Source: Psychrobacter arenosus
GTDB taxonomy: Bacteria > Pseudomonadota > Gammaproteobacteria > Pseudomonadales > Moraxellaceae
Direction: 5' to 3'
Assembly: GCF_904848165.1 (NCBI RefSeq)
Contig: NZ_LR884459.1
Coordinates: 930,001 to 994,000 of the forward strand
DNA length: 64,000 nt
Part shown: positions 9,675 to 23,577 of the stretch, in pieces
Layout: each line of letters begins with the position of its first letter
Numbering within the stretch: the stretch's first letter is position 1
Notes under the pieces: generated by a model
The model's input: only the letters and a program-made list of their open reading frames with translations
What the model was told of the DNA's origin: nothing
The model's database searches: none
Made by a program: the position numbers and the translations under genes

Positions 9675-9750
9675 GGGTGATTAGCTCAGTTGGTAGAGCG
9701 TCTGCCTTACACGCAGAATGTCGGCGGTTCGAATCCGTCATCACCCACCA
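9675..9750 (+). tRNA. tRNA-Val (anticodon TAC)
   Basis: A complete cloverleaf of 76 nt can be read: acceptor GGGTGAT paired with ATCACCC, D-arm around AGCTCAGTTGGTAGAGC, anticodon loop CTTACAC with TAC, and T-arm GGTTCGAATCC. The 3' CCA is encoded. It reads Val codons such as GTA. Confidence 0.97.
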
Positions 9751-9791
9751 CTACTTTAGTAAGGTAGTAAAACATACTAAACACGACCTAA

Positions 9792-9868
9792 GCAGCGGTA
9801 GTTCAGTTGGTTAGAATACCGGCCTGTCACGCCGGGGGTCGCGGGTTCGAGTCCCGTCCGCTGCGCCA
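9792..9868 (+). tRNA. tRNA-Asp (anticodon GTC)
   Basis: A complete cloverleaf of 77 nt can be read: acceptor GCAGCGG paired with CCGCTGC, anticodon loop containing GTC, T-arm GGGTTCGAGTCCC, encoded CCA. It lies 41 nt after tRNA-Val and is presumably on the same transcript, which ends at the terminator about 50 nt downstream. Confidence 0.97.
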
Positions 9869-9910: not shown

Positions 9911-9963
9911 TGAGCAAGTTTCGCCCCATGTATTAGTTTACTTGGGGTTTTTTTGTGTCTGTA
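9911..9963 (+). repeat. 53-bp repeat copy 1, containing the tRNA operon terminator
   Basis: The copy contains the conserved lead-in AGCAAGTTTCGCC, then a hairpin (CCCCA...TGGGG with further pairs inside) and a run of seven T. It is identical to copy 2 at 10905-10956 except for one T fewer there. A diverged third copy lies at 14156-14200. It acts plausibly as the intrinsic terminator for tRNA-Val/tRNA-Asp. Confidence 0.85.
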
Positions 9964-10769: not shown

Positions 10770-11192
10770 GGCGTCATATATTAATGTGACTGCGAATTGT
10801 AATCCTCAGCGCAGCGGCTGTAATCGGCGGTGGGCTTTTTTATCAAGTACGAAGAACGCCCATCGAAAGCACTTTTTATACCTTCCTTGATAGCTCTTTT
10901 GTTATGAGCAAGTTTCGCCCCATGTATTAGTTTACTTGGGGTTTTTTGTGTCTGTAAGCAAACCTCAGCTGCTAAAGATACTGGGACTAAGACTAACGCT
11001 GACCAATAACCTTATCGCTACTGGCTCATAAGCCACGGTCACAAGCCAGATCAAGATTTTATATCGTCAGCATTTCTCCTTTGTTGTAAATAGCAAATAG
11101 CGCCAAATCTTGACGCAATCTTAACGCTCTCATCGCTACTTTGGCAGCTCTACCCACAGACAATCTGTTGGTGACTTATCAAGGAGCAGGCC
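10770..11192. other. Intergenic region holding repeat copy 2; otherwise no gene seen
   Basis: Apart from the repeat at 10905-10956 and a G/C-rich stretch with a short T-run near 10810-10842 that may be a further terminator, I see nothing supportable. AAGGAG just before 11193 is the ribosome site of the next gene. Confidence 0.5.
10905..10956 (+). repeat. Repeat copy 2 (terminator-containing direct repeat)
   Basis: It matches copy 1 (9911-9963) over its whole length except one T in the T-run, and so forms a direct repeat about 1 kb apart around the DUF4334 gene. It probably also works as that gene's terminator. Confidence 0.85.
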
Positions 11193-14084: not shown

Positions 14085-14155
14085 TAACCGTCTATAGAAG
14101 TTACTTTGTAGGTTAAATAAAGCTAACGTCGCCTAACTTCTCAAATATTAATATT

Positions 14156-14200
14156 AAGCAAGTTTCGCCTCAAGCATTCTATTGTTTAGGGCTTTTTCTC
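14156..14200 (+). repeat. Diverged third copy of the AGCAAGTTTCGCC terminator repeat
   Basis: It shares AGCAAGTTTCGCC exactly with the copies at 9911 and 10905, followed by a different hairpin (GCCTCAA...TTTAGGGC) and a T-rich tail. It lies just after the SRAP gene and plausibly terminates it; only the lead-in and overall layout are conserved. Confidence 0.65.
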
Positions 14201-14248: not shown

Positions 14249-17200
14249 TCATAGAATACTCTCTCTCAATAAATAACCATGAACTGAGCCCCTTTCAACC
14301 ATAAAATCTAAAATAGCAATTACTTTAGTTTTTAATCTAACATCTTGCTTAATTCTTTGACGATTCAAGAATATGTATTGTCGCAGATAATTCTCTAAAT
14401 TGAACAAAGTGTCAGATTCAACGTTTCCAAGTTTTAAATTATGATTATTTGAAGCAATGGTATTAATCCAATCAATACCTGGATTATGGAATTTGCTAGC
14501 TACTGAATTTAAGACCCTAGCAATCGAGTACAATACTGATGGATGATTACCTAAATCTTTAGATATATCGTTATACAGCCATAAATCTTCCTTTGTTAGA
14601 CTTTGCCATTCCTTTTGTTTTTCTCCCCACCACCTCCAAGCAAGTAAGTAGTTAACAATCAAACTTTCGAAGCCATCGTGATATCTACCTTGGTTGTATA
14701 GCTCGATAATTTTAGGGTAAAGCAACTTCCAAATGTACCAAAAAACTTTAGGTTGATAGAATTCATTCTCTGACCAAATGAATCGCTCAATAAATTGTTC
14801 TGATTCATCATTCCGTTTTAAATTGTTTATAAATGGTTCTAATAACCTTTTAACTTCATCTTCGCTATTTCTATGTAGTGATATCGCACTAATTTTTTTA
14901 AATATGCTTAGTCTTAAATTGTAGAGATTATTAATATCAGTATTCTCACGTCTATTCTTGAGAAGTGTTTCTGCAATATTAGGTAGAGTCAAATTCAAAA
15001 CAGTCAAGTGATCTTTATCTTCAGTGTCATTTGGTATTAACTGATAAACAGTTTCCAAGTCATCAACATTTAAATTATCTAGTTGATTACTATTAAATTT
15101 TAGCCTATCAAGTTGATCGTCTATCCCTTTAGATTTGCACAACTCTAAAAACTCTTCAAATATTTCTGACTTTAGAATCCTATGGTTATATTTTTGACTT
15201 TCATTACTTTGTAGCGCTTCGATAGCATTATTATATAACGGCTTAAACTGTATAAAGCCATTAACAATTTGCTCAGCAACTTGTGGACTACTATTCCATA
15301 AGCCTTTTTGATGAATCGCTTCAACGGCATAGTCGCATACTCTTTTATACATTCCTATAGAACGCTTATCAAACAGTATAAATATCAGTAACAAAGCTAA
15401 TTTTTCTATGTTGTGTGGATATTCCTCAATCAGTTTGGGTAAAGCGTGTGTACAAGCTTCTAAACCATCACCGATTTGGTATTCATAATTATCTGAGAAC
15501 AATCTTTCAATGCTATCTTCAATAATTTTTTTACATAAATCTTTGTCAGAATTTGGAAGCAGGTGACTATATTTAATAATTAGCTTTGAACAACTATAGT
15601 AAGCAATATTACGATTGAGCTGTATAAAAGTTGCATCTGATGTGTTTTCAAGTTTATTTAATAAATTCTTAGTATCATTTAAAGCTAGTAAATGATTGTT
15701 CTTATACTTTTTACTGCCCTCATATTCTTTATCATTAATAAATTTCGCCCACAAGTCCAATGGAATATATTCAAATCTTTCGTTATATTCTACTTGTGCT
15801 GTTTCACTAATCCTTTTTTGTTTTTCTGTCAATTTTGGTGTAAAAGCAACTTTGGTTTGTTCTTCCTCTTCGATTACCTCAGGTACTAAATTACGTCTAT
15901 CCATTCTTGCTAATAATATACCTGTAGTTTGATCTTCATCACTCAACTCAGATTTATGTTGATCGATAATCTCAAGAATATTTTCAACAAAATCTGAGTT
16001 TTGCTCTTTTGAAAAGTTTTTTACGCCATGAAATTGATAGTGCAGACATAAGTGCTCTAAACTTAGACTTCTGTGCTCGTCTTCACAAGTTTTGAGACGC
16101 TCATTTCTATATAAGATATTCTCTAAGTCAGGGTTAAAGCCATAGCCCATACCGTATAATGACTTCGCTTCAAATTCAGTTCTACTACGAGCTGAGTCAT
16201 AGTGAAATAACTCAATCGACTTAAAAAGAACTAGTGCAACATCACAAAATTTATTATGGTGAGCTAAAACAACACTACATACTACCGAAGTCACTGACGT
16301 TGAAGTAGAATTTTTTAAAATCTTTAAAAGTAATGTCTGGACAATTTTACTATCGAGCTGTTCAGCAAGAATCAATAAAAATTTTTCTAATGCCATATGT
16401 ATAGATTGAAGTAGTTCTGGAGTTAACGGGCTACCAAAACCTCTATACATTGTCCACAATGCAAAGCTATTATATTGTGTTACTTCATTGTCCTGAATAT
16501 ATATTTTAACTTCGTTAACGTCCTTTTTACCTGTATCTGAACGAGCGTAGTTTGCAACTGCAAAATTAGTGAAATTGATAATAAAATCGATAGCTTCTAA
16601 AAAGCTCTTTGTTTGCAATATAAAATGCATTGGGGTTTGATGTGCACTTGCAGGATAGTACTTGAATTCATACTCTCTCAAGCCATAATCTGTCTCTGAA
16701 TTCATGTTAAAACTTAATGAACGGTAAGGATCTTTATTTTTCTTTTCAATCCAAAATATTCTACAAAGCTCAATAATTGAGTTTGGTAATAGCTGAATTA
16801 ACGGGATAGCTAAATAGCATTTATTTAGAATTGTTACACAGAATTCTTGATACGGATCATTATGCTCGACCCAAACATGCTTAGTGACCTTATCAAAGAT
16901 TTCCCTTATTTCATCTTCTATTTCACGGCATGACGCAAAAACAACTTTATAAATATTATTATTTTCGTTTCGAGAGTATATATGTTCTTCTTGCTCTGTC
17001 TTCTTTAAAATGCTCACTGCAAGTAAACCAGAAAGCCTTGTCGTTACTCCTTTATCGTTACTTTGACACCAATCCAATAAGATTGGTAAAACTCTACTTC
17101 TATTACTTTCAAAAAAATCAAGCTGATGCTTATTGATAAAATCAATAGTCGCTTGCCAACCTCTGCCTTTGGGTCTAGTATTCTGTAGCACAGACACAAC

Positions 17201-18940
17201 ATCTTTACAGGCAACCTGTAGTAAAAATATAATACGTTTTAAAATAGAAAAGTCATTTTCTATTAGCTCATTTTCGTATATTTTGAAAAACTCAAATGAG
17301 TACTCTGACAGTAACACTGAAACCAATAGCTCATCCTTCCAAAACTGGCTAATGTCACTGACAAAGACATTATTAATAAAATTTTTGATAATAGCATCTT
17401 CTTCTATCAATTTTTGAGATAGCCAAAGTCTAAAAGCTCTTCTAATTGCTAGCGAATTACCTAGCTCTCTAAAAAAATCCTCAGCATTTATATGGTTCTG
17501 ATAAGCCTTGTTTATGATATGGTTTAATGCCCACTCTTCATATATATCATGAGTAATGAAATATCCGTCATGTTGTTCATCATAGCCTATGATGTCATCT
17601 ATCTTTAGTTGGTATAGAGCATCTTGAGGAAGGTTATCACCAGTAATATAAAAACGGTTAGTGTCAGCTCGCTGCTTTGCAATTTTCTCTAAACATCGAC
17701 CTCTCTTGATGTGAATATTATCCTTTTTAATAAGGCTGTTTTGAATTTTCTTTTTCCAAAGTAAGCCTATAAAACTAGCAAAATCACTTATAGCTTCTTC
17801 ACTTTGATAGTAGGCAACATACTCATTAAGGTAGAATAAATTTCTTAGTCTATCCTTAAAGATGGCATCGTTAGGTAGAACGATTCCAAACTTATTAGAT
17901 ATTTCAATCACCTTCTCGCCTGATAATAACTCAACTTCTAAAATCTTACATTGTAGCTGGTAGCTTTCATTTATATGAAAATTTAAGTCGTCTAAATACG
18001 AGGTTCGTGTAGTGAAAACTATAGTCCAGCCATGTGTTGTGAGACTGTTAACTAGATCGTGTAAAACGTTTTGATTGCTTAAGTCTGCTAACTTTTCTGC
18101 AGAATCAATTATAAATAATTTAGTAGTTTCATTTTCGTAGGTACTGAAGAAGTCAGCAGATGAAAAATTATGTTCAAAGCGAAATAAATCACTAACATGA
18201 TTAACGTTTAACTCTGTAGCTTTGAATATGCATATAGGTATATCAAAGGAATATTGCTGATAAAACTCTTTAAGAATAGCCGTTTTACCACTACCACCTT
18301 CACCAGATAAGATAATATGCTCATCTCTCAGTGTAAGATCCTTAATTTCCGAAATATAGCTTTGTCGCTCGATCTTTATCTGTTGCTGGTTTGCGCTAAT
18401 TTCGGTACGAATGGCGTTCAGTATGCTAGTATTATGGCCAAAAACACTGTCGCGCAATTTATCTAAAGTTGGGTCTAAGCTAAAAAATAGATCGTGAATG
18501 TACTTATGCTTTGGTAAAGCTAGTTGAAGTTCAAAATGACTAGGTACACGCCATTCAAGTGAGACACCAAGCTTTTTACAAGCTTCATCTATTTCGACTT
18601 CATAGCTAGCTTTCTTTCTGTCTTTTAAAGAACTTTCAGATAGCTCTTGATTGATGTAAAAATAAACAACGTCTATTTCAGGGTTCTTACTTTTGGCTTT
18701 TGTAATAGCCTCAATAATTTCTTTTTTTCTATCACTGATAGATACTTCGTAGTATTTAGCTGAGAAACCATAAACCGCGCCATCTTTCTCAAGTGGCTCA
18801 GTTTCGATCCCTGTTTGGTTTTTATATCTGAATAATCCAACATGATTGTCAAATTCTGAGCAAAACAACAAATAAGCCATCTGCTCGAACGCCCATTGCT
18901 CCTTATTTTCATTTTTAACGGCAAATTTATTCCAGTTCAT
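14249..18940 (-). CDS. Avs4-like STAND NTPase with N-terminal nuclease-like domain (putative antiphage defence)
   Basis: This is a 1563-residue protein. Residues 1-150 look like a PD-(D/E)xK/Mrr-type nuclease: a helix with E17QWAFEQ, then GIETEP (E46, E48), then GFSAKYY (K62), where SAK stands in for the usual (E/Q)xK. A STAND NTPase core follows, with Walker A GEGGSGKT (213-220), Walker B LFIIDSAE (275-282) and a sensor stretch IVFTTRTS (about 307-314). The remaining roughly 1100 residues are helical and probably form a repeat sensor array. Architecture and length match Avs4 (AVAST type IV, about 1590 residues), which senses a phage protein and then degrades DNA; assignment to that exact type is inference. 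AAGGA precedes the ATG. The gene is visibly richer in AT than its neighbours, as expected of acquired DNA. Confidence 0.72.
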   Translation of the reverse strand: MNWNKFAVKNENKEQWAFEQMAYLLFCSEFDNHVGLFRYKNQTGIETEPLEKDGAVYGFSAKYYEVSISDRKKEIIEAITKAKSKNPEIDVVYFYINQELSESSLKDRKKASYEVEIDEACKKLGVSLEWRVPSHFELQLALPKHKYIHDLFFSLDPTLDKLRDSVFGHNTSILNAIRTEISANQQQIKIERQSYISEIKDLTLRDEHIILSGEGGSGKTAILKEFYQQYSFDIPICIFKATELNVNHVSDLFRFEHNFSSADFFSTYENETTKLFIIDSAEKLADLSNQNVLHDLVNSLTTHGWTIVFTTRTSYLDDLNFHINESYQLQCKILEVELLSGEKVIEISNKFGIVLPNDAIFKDRLRNLFYLNEYVAYYQSEEAISDFASFIGLLWKKKIQNSLIKKDNIHIKRGRCLEKIAKQRADTNRFYITGDNLPQDALYQLKIDDIIGYDEQHDGYFITHDIYEEWALNHIINKAYQNHINAEDFFRELGNSLAIRRAFRLWLSQKLIEEDAIIKNFINNVFVSDISQFWKDELLVSVLLSEYSFEFFKIYENELIENDFSILKRIIFLLQVACKDVVSVLQNTRPKGRGWQATIDFINKHQLDFFESNRSRVLPILLDWCQSNDKGVTTRLSGLLAVSILKKTEQEEHIYSRNENNNIYKVVFASCREIEDEIREIFDKVTKHVWVEHNDPYQEFCVTILNKCYLAIPLIQLLPNSIIELCRIFWIEKKNKDPYRSLSFNMNSETDYGLREYEFKYYPASAHQTPMHFILQTKSFLEAIDFIINFTNFAVANYARSDTGKKDVNEVKIYIQDNEVTQYNSFALWTMYRGFGSPLTPELLQSIHMALEKFLLILAEQLDSKIVQTLLLKILKNSTSTSVTSVVCSVVLAHHNKFCDVALVLFKSIELFHYDSARSRTEFEAKSLYGMGYGFNPDLENILYRNERLKTCEDEHRSLSLEHLCLHYQFHGVKNFSKEQNSDFVENILEIIDQHKSELSDEDQTTGILLARMDRRNLVPEVIEEEEQTKVAFTPKLTEKQKRISETAQVEYNERFEYIPLDLWAKFINDKEYEGSKKYKNNHLLALNDTKNLLNKLENTSDATFIQLNRNIAYYSCSKLIIKYSHLLPNSDKDLCKKIIEDSIERLFSDNYEYQIGDGLEACTHALPKLIEEYPHNIEKLALLLIFILFDKRSIGMYKRVCDYAVEAIHQKGLWNSSPQVAEQIVNGFIQFKPLYNNAIEALQSNESQKYNHRILKSEIFEEFLELCKSKGIDDQLDRLKFNSNQLDNLNVDDLETVYQLIPNDTEDKDHLTVLNLTLPNIAETLLKNRRENTDINNLYNLRLSIFKKISAISLHRNSEDEVKRLLEPFINNLKRNDESEQFIERFIWSENEFYQPKVFWYIWKLLYPKIIELYNQGRYHDGFESLIVNYLLAWRWWGEKQKEWQSLTKEDLWLYNDISKDLGNHPSVLYSIARVLNSVASKFHNPGIDWINTIASNNHNLKLGNVESDTLFNLENYLRQYIFLNRQRIKQDVRLKTKVIAILDFMVERGSVHGYLLRESIL

Positions 18941-18990
18941 TATAATCCTTGTAATTTTGCTCTTAATGAAGCTTCTTGTACTTTCAGTTT
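18940..18990 (-). pseudogene. C-terminal relic of a gene formerly coupled to the Avs4-like gene
   Basis: On the minus strand, 16 codons (KLKVQEASLRAKLQGL) end in TAA that overlaps the ATG of the big gene as TAATG. The frame is closed by a stop just upstream, so no complete gene remains. Stop-start overlap of this kind is typical of translationally coupled operon partners. It may also be chance. Confidence 0.35.
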
Positions 18991-19286
18991 TTAAAATTAA
19001 ATATTATTCACAGTCGACTTACACACATTCAATGACCGTAATACTTCCAACATTATATAGTCTGAGCTTAAGCTGTATCATTTTGTCTCCGTAATTATAA
19101 ACTATAAATTCAGGCTGAAATCTATCAACAGCTTATCCAATATATACACCTGCTGCATTTGAAACATAGACTAATGAATATACTTTTAAATGTTGTGTTC
19201 TTCTTTCATCTCTGTAAATATTTTCTTAAGCCTATTAGCTAGTTTTTCACCTTCAAGCGGATATGCTATTGTGCAATTACCTTGTC
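18991..19286. other. Intergenic region between the Avs4-like gene and the rhodanese gene
   Basis: AT-rich, with stops in all frames. The only thing I can support is the short minus-strand remnant listed at 19186-19296. No integrase, direct repeat or tRNA fragment was found here. Confidence 0.45.
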
Positions 19287-19296
19287 CTACCCAAAA
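19186..19296 (-). pseudogene. Short C-terminal coding remnant, family unknown
   Basis: A minus-strand frame reads FWVGQGNCTIAYPLEGEKLA and then NRLKKIFTEMKEEHNI before TAA at 19186-19188. It is closed upstream by TGA and has no start codon. The residue composition looks protein-like, with a charged amphipathic helix at the end. It overlaps the original 3' end of the rhodanese gene in another frame. It may be the tail of a lost accessory gene. Confidence 0.3.
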
Positions 19297-20745: not shown

Positions 20746-23577
20746 CTAACCCGTATTACGCAGCCCTTGCGCCACCCCATTAATAGTTAATTGGGTCAAC
20801 TGCAGCAGTCTAGCATCGTCGATATCTTCTTTAAGCATATCCGTACCATCGCCACGACGTTGCTTCAATAACGCCAATTGTAGCCAGTTTAGCGCATTGA
20901 GATACGGCAATCTTAATGCTAATGACCGAGCTAGCGAGCGGTTGCTGGTCAGTAAAGTCTCTTGTCCGGTTAATAGCAGCAAGGCTCTCTGACTACGCTC
21001 ATACTCTTCTAGAATTAACGCAAAAATCTCTTCCGCATTGTCTTTATCCTTGGCCAATTCGACATAACTCTTGGCAATATCTATATCAGTCTTAGCCATC
21101 ACCTGTTCCATATTGGATAGCATCGATTCGACGAAGGCGCTATTTTTGGCATGGTCTTGTAGTACTGCCAGCATGTTTTCATCTTCTGCTAATAACTGCT
21201 CTACTGCCGTACCAAAGCCATACCAGGCAGGCAACATCAAACGGTTTTGCATCCAAGAGAATACCCAAGGGATGGCGCGTAAGTCCTGAATCTTCGCCAA
21301 AGTCTTACGACTGGCGGGACGCGAGCCAATATTTAAGCTAGCAATCTCAGTGATTGGGCTCGCCTGCATGAAGTAATCTATAAAGTACGGGTGAGTAATT
21401 AGCTCACGATAATGGTTAAACGCGGTCGTCGATAGCTCATCGAGCAGCTCAGGGTCTGGCGTCATCGTAGCATCAGGCAACAATGTCGCCTTTAAAGTAG
21501 CAGAGACTAATGCTTCGAGGTTGCGCTCAGCATTGCCTGCATCGGCATACTTGGCTGTGATGACCTCGCCCTGTTCAGTGATACGAATCTGCCCCGCTAC
21601 CGATTTGGCAGGTTGCGCCAAGATAGCTTCGAATGACGGTCCACCACCACGGCCAACACTACCGCCGCGACCATGGAATAAGCGCAGACGCACATTATAT
21701 TTGGCAAATACTTCGACCAGTCTTTGCTCAGACTGATAGAGCGCCCATTGGCTAGTGATATAACCGCCGTCTTTATTAGAGTCTGAATAGCCGAGCATGA
21801 TTTCTTGCAGATTATCACGGCTGTTGAGTAAGTCGCGGTACCAAGGATTCGCAAACAGCGCCTCCATGACTTCGATACAGCCTTCTAGCGCACCGATTGT
21901 TTCAAATAAAGGTACGATATTTAAGCGGCTAAGCGGACGACCGGCTTTGATAGTTAGTAGCCCGGTTTCCTTCATTAGCAACGCCAGAGCAAGCATATCG
22001 CTCATGGTCTCACAGTTGGAGATGATGCTCTGTTGAATGGCTTGCTCGCCAAAGCGCGCTTTGATATCCGCCGCCGCAGCAAAGATCGCTAGCTCATGCT
22101 CAGTTTGCTCGTCATAGTCGATATATGAGCTAAATAGTGGCCGCGGGGTCGCCAGCTCACGCAGCAATACGCGTTGACGGGCAGTCTCAGATAAAGACAG
22201 ATAGTCTTCTAAATCCGCATGTTTAAACAAGTCATGGACACAATCAGCATGACGCGCCGCATGTTGGCGCAAATCAATCGGCATCAAATAAAAGCCAAAT
22301 AGACTGACACTACGGATTAAATCCGCCAATCTACCTTCGGCAAGTTTGGTGCTGCCATTGTCAATTAAAGACTGCTGAATTACCGTTAAATCGTCTAGGA
22401 ATTCTTCGGCATTACTATATGGCGCAGCGCTACCAAACCGGCAACCATAATCCAAACCAAAACCATGACTCGTCGCGACCACCCGCGCAGAGATTAACGC
22501 TATCGCACGGCGGTATGGCTCTTCGCTACGGGAGATTTCGGTGTCGGGCGATTGCTCAGCCATCGCTAGTACTTCGGCATTCACGTGCACGCGACGAATA
22601 GACAGCGGCAGTGCTTCGTATAACTTACTTAGCTCATCGCGGTAGAAGTAAAATACTGCGGCAGCTTGGCGTTTAAACACATCGCGTAAGGTCTGGGCTG
22701 AGACAAAAGGGTTGCCATCTCTATCACCGCCAATCCAGTTGCCAATGTGAATGATATTGGGCAAGTTCGCGTCTGGATAGCTGTGTCCCAAAGTCTTTGA
22801 TAACTTACGATATAACGCAGGTAGCGCTTGAAAAAAGCTCAGGTCAAAATAGCCCACCCCGTTTTCAATTTCATCATCAACGGTAATCTTAAAATGACGG
22901 GTTTCATTGGTCTGCCATAACGCTAGCAAGACCGTCTCGATGTCTTCTTCGAGTAGCGCTTGCTGATAACCCGATGAATGCGAATGCTGCGACAAGACCT
23001 CGCGAATACGGCGATGAAAGTTCAGGATACTCTGACGCTGGACTTCAGTAGGATGCGCCGTTAGTACCGCTGCGACACTAGTAGACTCAAGCTGCTCGGT
23101 AAGCTGCTCACCACTTACCCCTTGCTCTTGAATTTGCGCTAATACACTCTCAAAGCTCGAACGTGATGGTACCGCATCATGCTCATGGGCACGACGGCGG
23201 CGCTCATGGTGACGGTCTTCCGCGATGTTAAACATCTGCGCAAATAGACTGCAGGCACGAATTAAGTTTTCAGTTTGGATATCATCTAAAGTCGGTAAGA
23301 TTTGCTCGATGGTCTGCTTAGGATTTTCGCCGGCCAGCAAATCATTAATCGTCTGGGTAACCGCTGCCGAGGTCTGTGACTTAATCACGCGAATGAGCGC
23401 ATCACTTAACAGCTTAGTCTCTGCCAATAGCGGCAAGTCCTTTTCATTGCCCAATAGCGCATCGCGAGCGATAGGGTCAAACACTGTGATAGGTGTATCC
23501 TCAGCGCTAGTGGCTAAGGCATCTTGCTGCTGCAGTGCAGGGTGATTCTGGGGACTGATGTTATCTTGTGAACTCAT
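20746..23577 (-). CDS. ppc: Phosphoenolpyruvate carboxylase
   Basis: This enzyme carboxylates PEP to oxaloacetate and so refills the TCA cycle. At 943 residues it is near the usual 880-940. The catalytic-histidine motif [12 protein letters not shown] lies near residue 173, and the PEP/bicarbonate loop [13 protein letters not shown] lies in the middle third, with [11 protein letters not shown] just before it. The C-terminus ends [10 protein letters not shown], the conserved RNTG that closes the active site. AGGATAG precedes the ATG. Monocistronic. Confidence 0.98.

Follow-up and report, generated by a model that had tools for sequence, protein, structure and literature searches.

A complete chromosomal Avs4 from Psychrobacter arenosus with a conserved variant of the nuclease half-motif and signs of a mosaic sensor

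The DNA analyzed here, referred to as the window, comprises 64,000 nucleotides of Psychrobacter arenosus (positions 930,001 to 994,000 of contig NZ_LR884459.1, assembly GCF_904848165.1) and carries an avs4 gene on its minus strand. The parts of this gene and its product have the following window positions:

14249-18940, minus strand: avs4 gene, 1563 amino acids, intact (reading frame, two profile libraries, alignment with the structure 8dgf)
18482-18940, minus strand: N-terminal PD-(D/E)xK (Mrr-like) nuclease domain, residues 1-153 (predicted fold)
18803-18805, minus strand: E46 carboxylate (kept in 193/193 aligned sequences)
18755-18763, minus strand: S60-A61-K62, variant of the (E/Q)xK half-motif (alignments of 193 and 217 sequences, clade tree)
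17501-18358, minus strand: STAND NTPase core, about residues 195-480 (8dgf alignment; NACHT and nSTAND3 Pfam matches below cut-off)
18281-18304, minus strand: Walker A GEGGSGKT, residues 213-220 with K219 (G218, K219 and T220 in 193/193)
18095-18118, minus strand: Walker B LFIIDSAE, residues 275-282 (D279, S280 and E282 in 193/193)
14252-17143, minus strand: C-terminal helical (TPR-type) sensor, about residues 600-1563, left border approximate (8dgf alignment to residue 1563; role of the E. coli TPR region according to excerpts of PMC12847820)
14591-16843, minus strand: mosaic part of the sensor, residues 700-1450 (ratio of nonsynonymous to synonymous substitution, dN/dS; proportion of synonymous differences, pS; segment identities; trees)

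The open reading frame runs uninterrupted from an ATG, upstream of which an AAGGA motif is located, through 1563 codons to a stop codon. Its GC content of 0.325 (0.276 at third codon positions) compares with 0.453 in the remainder of the window; an earlier sequence-only reading had rightly described a single AT-rich gene. Since the longest open stretch found in 300 mononucleotide shuffles of the avs4 DNA amounted to 184 codons, a chance origin of the frame is excluded. Membership of the encoded protein in the Avs4 family is, judged by sequence similarity, near certain: the NCBIfam equivalog model for Avs4, NF041815, matches residues 2-1563 with 2007.1 bits at a cut-off of 1500, and the PADLOC Avs4 model, which has no stated cut-off, reaches 1537.9 bits across residues 1-1563. 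The one significant, full-length match among solved structures is E. coli Avs4 (8dgf; 872 bits, residues 2-1563), deposited in complex with the portal of phage PhiV-1. The proposed Avs4-like STAND NTPase is thus borne out by two profile libraries and a solved structure, and what had been called a candidate antiphage system is better placed within an antiphage family already established by experiment. The primary Avs papers are reportedly Gao 2020 and Gao 2022. Among 105 genomes of the genus, four including that of P. arenosus itself have an avs4 match above the family cut-off and 15 have any match.

Relatives for comparison were drawn from the best 80 of 134 matches (79 loci) and from protein lists holding the best 120 of 945 and the best 120 of 1083 entries. 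For the alignment of 193 sequences, 20 BLAST rows (17 loci) that failed to cover the range from residues 1-3 to beyond 1400 were dropped, four segments belonging to the window avs4 itself were skipped and listed proteins of at most 1400 amino acids were excluded; the structure alignment A1 comprises the window protein and 70 of the 79 loci. The NTPase core is intact, as the sequence-only reading had stated, with the key residues of both Walker motifs invariant throughout the 193 sequences.

The N-terminus is modelled with a PD-(D/E)xK nuclease fold, in agreement with the nuclease-like domain suggested before, and E46, E48 and S60-A61-K62 occupy the positions given there. In the model, a strand formed by residues 55-62 holds S60 and K62 and is followed by a helix (residues 68-85) with R71 and E77. 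E46 and K62 are present in all 193 aligned sequences; among 217 full-length sequences E46 is kept in at least 98% and K62 in every one. A glutamine or glutamate two residues before the lysine is a usual, though not a defining, feature of Avs4, and the window protein has S60 at this place. The half-motif reads QAK in 97, QSK in 91, SAK in 25, EAK in two, QVK in one and QCK in one of the 217 proteins, the 25 SAK sequences being a count among close relatives, not across the whole family, and including one gene twice (L011 is the same as L084). All SAK proteins form one clade (support 1.0, the same under two rootings), within which pairwise identity falls to 48%; proteins named Avs4 by NCBI from Wielerella bovis and Neisseria montereyensis are likewise of the SAK type. 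Further residues go along with the serine: R71 and C121 occur in 25/25 SAK proteins, E77 in 24/25 (mostly aspartate in the others), and residue 65 is acidic in 96% of them versus 20% of the rest.

Because SAK has become fixed throughout a 25-member clade and residues 1-150 have low dN/dS values, the motif looks like a variant site rather than decay or loss. For the pairs window-G016, window-Ps6 and G016-Ps6 (all Psychrobacter alleles), this part has the lowest dN/dS of four protein parts (0.086, 0.068 and 0.077, respectively). A serine at the motif is also a property of Cfr10I itself. The restriction enzymes Cfr10I and NgoMIV have a PD-XXK-E arrangement with a relocated acid, as described in excerpts of PMC551604, and as such enzymes work it is plausible that the S-x-K site of the window protein is active, too. 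One observation weighs against this reading: an aspartate or glutamate at position 77 is found in 25/25 SAK proteins and also, by sequence counts only, in 81% of the 192 Q/E-type proteins. In the closest pair, window-G049, residues 1-150 do not have the lowest dN/dS (0.193 versus 0.168 for residues 1100-1563). The protein is under purifying selection, and on balance the dN/dS values favour a retained function of the nuclease domain.

The long helical tail noticed earlier corresponds to the TPR-type sensor, which can be aligned at the sequence level with portal-bound 8dgf through residue 1563. Alleles differ greatly in this part of the protein. P0006 is 97-98% identical to the window protein in residues 1-450 and 47% in residues 1250-1450, while P0001 and L082, which are 99-100% alike by segment, remain 95-98% identical to it throughout. 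The last 63 residues are again 90-98% identical between the window protein and three other alleles of the genus. Between the window and G016, pS amounts to 0.17-0.39 in residues 1-700 and to 0.59-0.75 in residues 700-900 and 1200-1500. The variance of pS was reached in 0/1000 permutations for each of three pairs and in 15/1000 for window-G049; such unevenness points to recombination beyond mere relaxed selection. In the pair window-Ps6, pS values of 0.59 and 0.48 also occur within residues 1-200, so that the pattern extends beyond the sensor and some alleles may have swapped the nuclease end as well. Trees built from residues 1-650 and from residues 700-1450 reject each other (approximately unbiased test, p = 2.4e-5 and 1.6e-5): the former separates the window protein, P0001 and P0006 from the other 12 sequences with a support of 99, the latter groups P0006 with P0009 and L083 with a support of 100, many inner branches of these 15-sequence trees being poorly supported (20-57). 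Given the sensor role of the TPR region in E. coli, the mosaic part would by homology lie within the recognition region, and the mosaicism suggests an exchange of recognition segments between alleles. Sensor recombination in Avs4 was the title subject of none of the literature matches listed, which is not proof of absence, and for Psychrobacter together with AVAST only unrelated titles were among the matches listed.

The surroundings of the gene contain the following features:

9792-9868, plus strand: tRNA-Asp; in G049 and G016, copies of its 3' end flank the islands that hold avs4
9911-9953, plus strand: terminator-like repeat after tRNA-Asp, copy 1
10905-10947, plus strand: terminator-like repeat, copy 2, 100% identical to copy 1
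14155-14197, plus strand: terminator-like repeat, copy 3, 74%, bordering the avs4 cassette on its 3' side
19007-19287, minus strand: decayed 3' fragment of a CBASS SAVED-HNH effector gene (tblastn with the intact G016 protein)

As the sequence-only reading had it, the low-GC avs4 gene lies in an accessory stretch behind tRNA-Asp, which forms a pair with tRNA-Val (9675-9868) and is separated from avs4 by 4.4 kb with several unrelated genes. Its further statement that the gene stands alone has to be amended in one respect: on the 5' side of avs4, on the same strand, lies the SAVED-HNH fragment (tblastn E 1e-29, two frames, internal stops). The three terminator-like repeats bracket accessory segments of the window; the genome holds five copies with at most three mismatches, located at or bordering two tRNA-Asp loci. 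For the tRNA-Asp end in the window, a search of the genome with a 31-base pattern (at most two mismatches) yielded no partner besides the two ends of the other tRNA-Asp locus, so that either an island has been eroded here or only the cassette was recombined in. That second tRNA-Val/tRNA-Asp locus (G000 C1:1008712-1032820; L146, L148, L149) harbours a 24-kb island of its own, which has copies of the tRNA-Asp 3' end on either side and contains DdmE-like, DdmD-like (partial match) and PDC-M26-like genes, an AAA-type gene with weak matches to restriction enzymes and, judged by eye, candidate type I restriction-modification genes.

In two of the three relatives of the genus that have a full-length avs4, G049 and G016, the gene resides in a tRNA-Asp-integrated island. 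Segment 14154-19287 of the window matches G016 at 81% identity and, starting at 14163, G049 at 96%. By contrast, the cls proteins of the two genomes share 70% and their best ppc proteins 38% identity with the window's counterparts; the cassette has therefore moved between lineages. As a separate observation, the window's ppc (20746-23577) is 79-88% identical to that of four genomes of the genus and 36-39% to that of 88 others, indicating two dissimilar ppc lineages. In G016, two tRNA-Asp ends enclose the stretch 1215928-1270981, in which avs4 lies directly behind CBASS genes: a SAVED-HNH gene without interruptions (543 amino acids) ends 64 bases before avs4 on the same strand and is preceded by CBASS-type cyclase, E1-E2-like and JAB genes. 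The E1-E2-like frame (429 amino acids; L140 14634-16324) covers the first three quarters or so of the model only and is followed by an overlapping frame of 151 amino acids, so this CBASS operon may be damaged. In G049, avs4 belongs to a stretch of 31.4 kb that is delimited by tRNA-Asp on one side and by a 48-bp repeat of the tRNA-Asp 3' end on the other and that also holds a tyrosine integrase, DarT, DarG and an AAA-type gene weakly matching restriction enzymes. Four further large genes of this island (L150 10800-15216 and 16974-19949) gave no PADLOC match at E 0.001 and are possible unknown defence or island genes. Homology with Ps6 is limited to little more than the gene (window 14255-18954), which indicates that avs4 also travels alone. 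Elsewhere in the genus, frames of about 1780 amino acids (G055 C1:512996-516172, G085 C21:2337-5495) weakly match the Avs4 NTPase and part of the sensor in two stretches; by sequence, they are perhaps another Avs type.

The phage portal is recognised by E. coli Avs4 (PMC12724215, PMC12847820, in excerpts), and excerpts of PMC12931631, PMC12724215 and PMC12847820 describe that the TPR sensor of the E. coli homologue binds it, apparently before assembly, that the NTPase oligomerises with ATP, as stated for Avs2, and that the nuclease domains cleave the DNA of phage and host alike. By analogy, the TPR-type sensor of the window protein would bind a portal protein made during infection, the STAND NTPase switch would oligomerise with ATP, a step carried over to Avs4 from Avs2, and the clustered PD-(D/E)xK domains would cut DNA and stop phage production, after which the cell would probably be killed. 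Portal binding, oligomerisation, nuclease activity in spite of S60 and protection are all inferred for this protein. We consider it very probable that the gene is a complete, horizontally acquired avs4 with the general mode of action of E. coli Avs4, and are less sure of the portal as the trigger of this particular allele. A wider scheme is possible but somewhat doubtful as a whole: the effector-switch and sensor halves may evolve separately, sensor segments being swapped by homologous recombination, probably inside tRNA-Asp defence islands, behind a near-constant nuclease-NTPase, which would make the protein a bacterial NOD-like receptor with exchangeable recognition, and the nuclease may have moved to an S-x-K site that borrows E77 or E65, a shift to which the changes at R71 and C121 would be coupled.

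Among the alternatives, it is unlikely, yet to be taken seriously, that a working receptor of the Avs4 type responds to another phage or mobile-element protein following sensor exchange. Sensor segments as little as 47% identical (P0006) behind 97-98% identical first 450 residues speak for it, as does Avs5, whose trigger, according to excerpts of PMC12931631, is the unrelated protein JADA; on the other hand, the match to portal-bound 8dgf covers the entire sensor, and the conserved final 63 residues are common to the window protein and three alleles of the genus. Improbable, in our view, is a true Avs4 in which S60 has weakened or abolished the nuclease, any protection then arising from another step such as sequestration of the portal. 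The serine does replace the Q/E of 192/217 relatives as a fixed difference at the catalytic half-motif. Against a dead nuclease stand the retention of E46 and K62 in SAK proteins, the persistence of SAK down to 48% pairwise identity, dN/dS values of about 0.07-0.09 that are lowest for residues 1-150 in three of four pairs (window-G049, with 0.19 versus 0.17 for residues 1100-1563, excepted) and the functional PD-XXK-E motif of Cfr10I and NgoMIV (PMC551604, in excerpts).

Somewhat more improbable still is a silent relic, that is, an intact coding sequence left stranded when a CBASS operon, perhaps the former source of its transcription, was lost. The arrangement in G016, with avs4 64 bases behind the SAVED-HNH gene on the same strand, and the decay of this upstream gene in the window agree with such a history. 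A relic is hard to reconcile with 1563 codons free of stops and frameshifts, with 97% protein identity to the G049 copy at a dN/dS of 0.26, and with Ps6, which shares little more than the gene and indicates that avs4 can stand alone; promoter-like sites are present upstream, but their number is not above chance (32 versus 24.7, standard deviation 5.1). That the protein is a non-defence STAND regulator resembling Avs4 in appearance only is scarcely credible. Pfam by itself yields weak, general NTPase matches (NACHT and nSTAND3, both under their gathering scores), but Avs4 models match over the full length, that of NCBI far above its cut-off, the NTPase part finds its match in these models and 8dgf rather than in a non-defence family, and the gene sits in a low-GC accessory stretch and, in relatives, in islands.

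The complete, acquired Avs4 that we favour is mostly an ordinary gene, and the conserved active-site variant and the mosaicism of the sensor are modest points of interest. It adds a chromosomal Psychrobacter representative to a family whose solved member is that of E. coli, and it raises the questions of whether a PD-(D/E)xK effector with an S-x-K site remains able to cleave DNA and whether naturally occurring mosaics of the sensor, such as P0006 and the window protein, differ in the phage detected. If they do, recognition segments could be mapped by natural swaps.

E. coli Avs4 and the window protein have the three-part layout in common (1587 and 1563 amino acids, aligned over residues 2-1563), as well as the Walker motifs and the glutamate and lysine of the nuclease. 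The E. coli plasmid copies are about 33% identical to the window protein and carry QSK in place of SAK. While the window avs4 is chromosomal, the E. coli copy WP_000240574.1 lies on plasmid NZ_CP024852.1, and 32 of the 39 matching records among the plasmids searched are from Escherichia. Within the SAK clade, the full-length proteins of Psychrobacter sp. Ps6 (79% identity), Wielerella bovis (55%) and Neisseria montereyensis (52%) share SAK, R71 and C121 with the window protein, and sensor segments are strongly divergent even among close alleles. AspBHI, MspJI, FokI, Nt.BspD6I and AF1548, which we take to share the PD-(D/E)xK fold, are 7-12% identical to the nuclease domain in structural alignments; from the restriction enzymes AspBHI, MspJI, FokI and Nt.BspD6I it differs in being the effector of a receptor. 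Five proteins of the genus (G065, G024, G038, G056, G076) likewise carry an Avs4-like nuclease domain, spanning about residues 1-235, on another body. In G065, the one of the five covered by the PADLOC scan, a protein of 1244 amino acids (L141 4875-8609) joins this domain to a PD-Lambda-4_A-like body, whereas the NTPase and sensor of the window protein belong to a family other than PD-Lambda-4.
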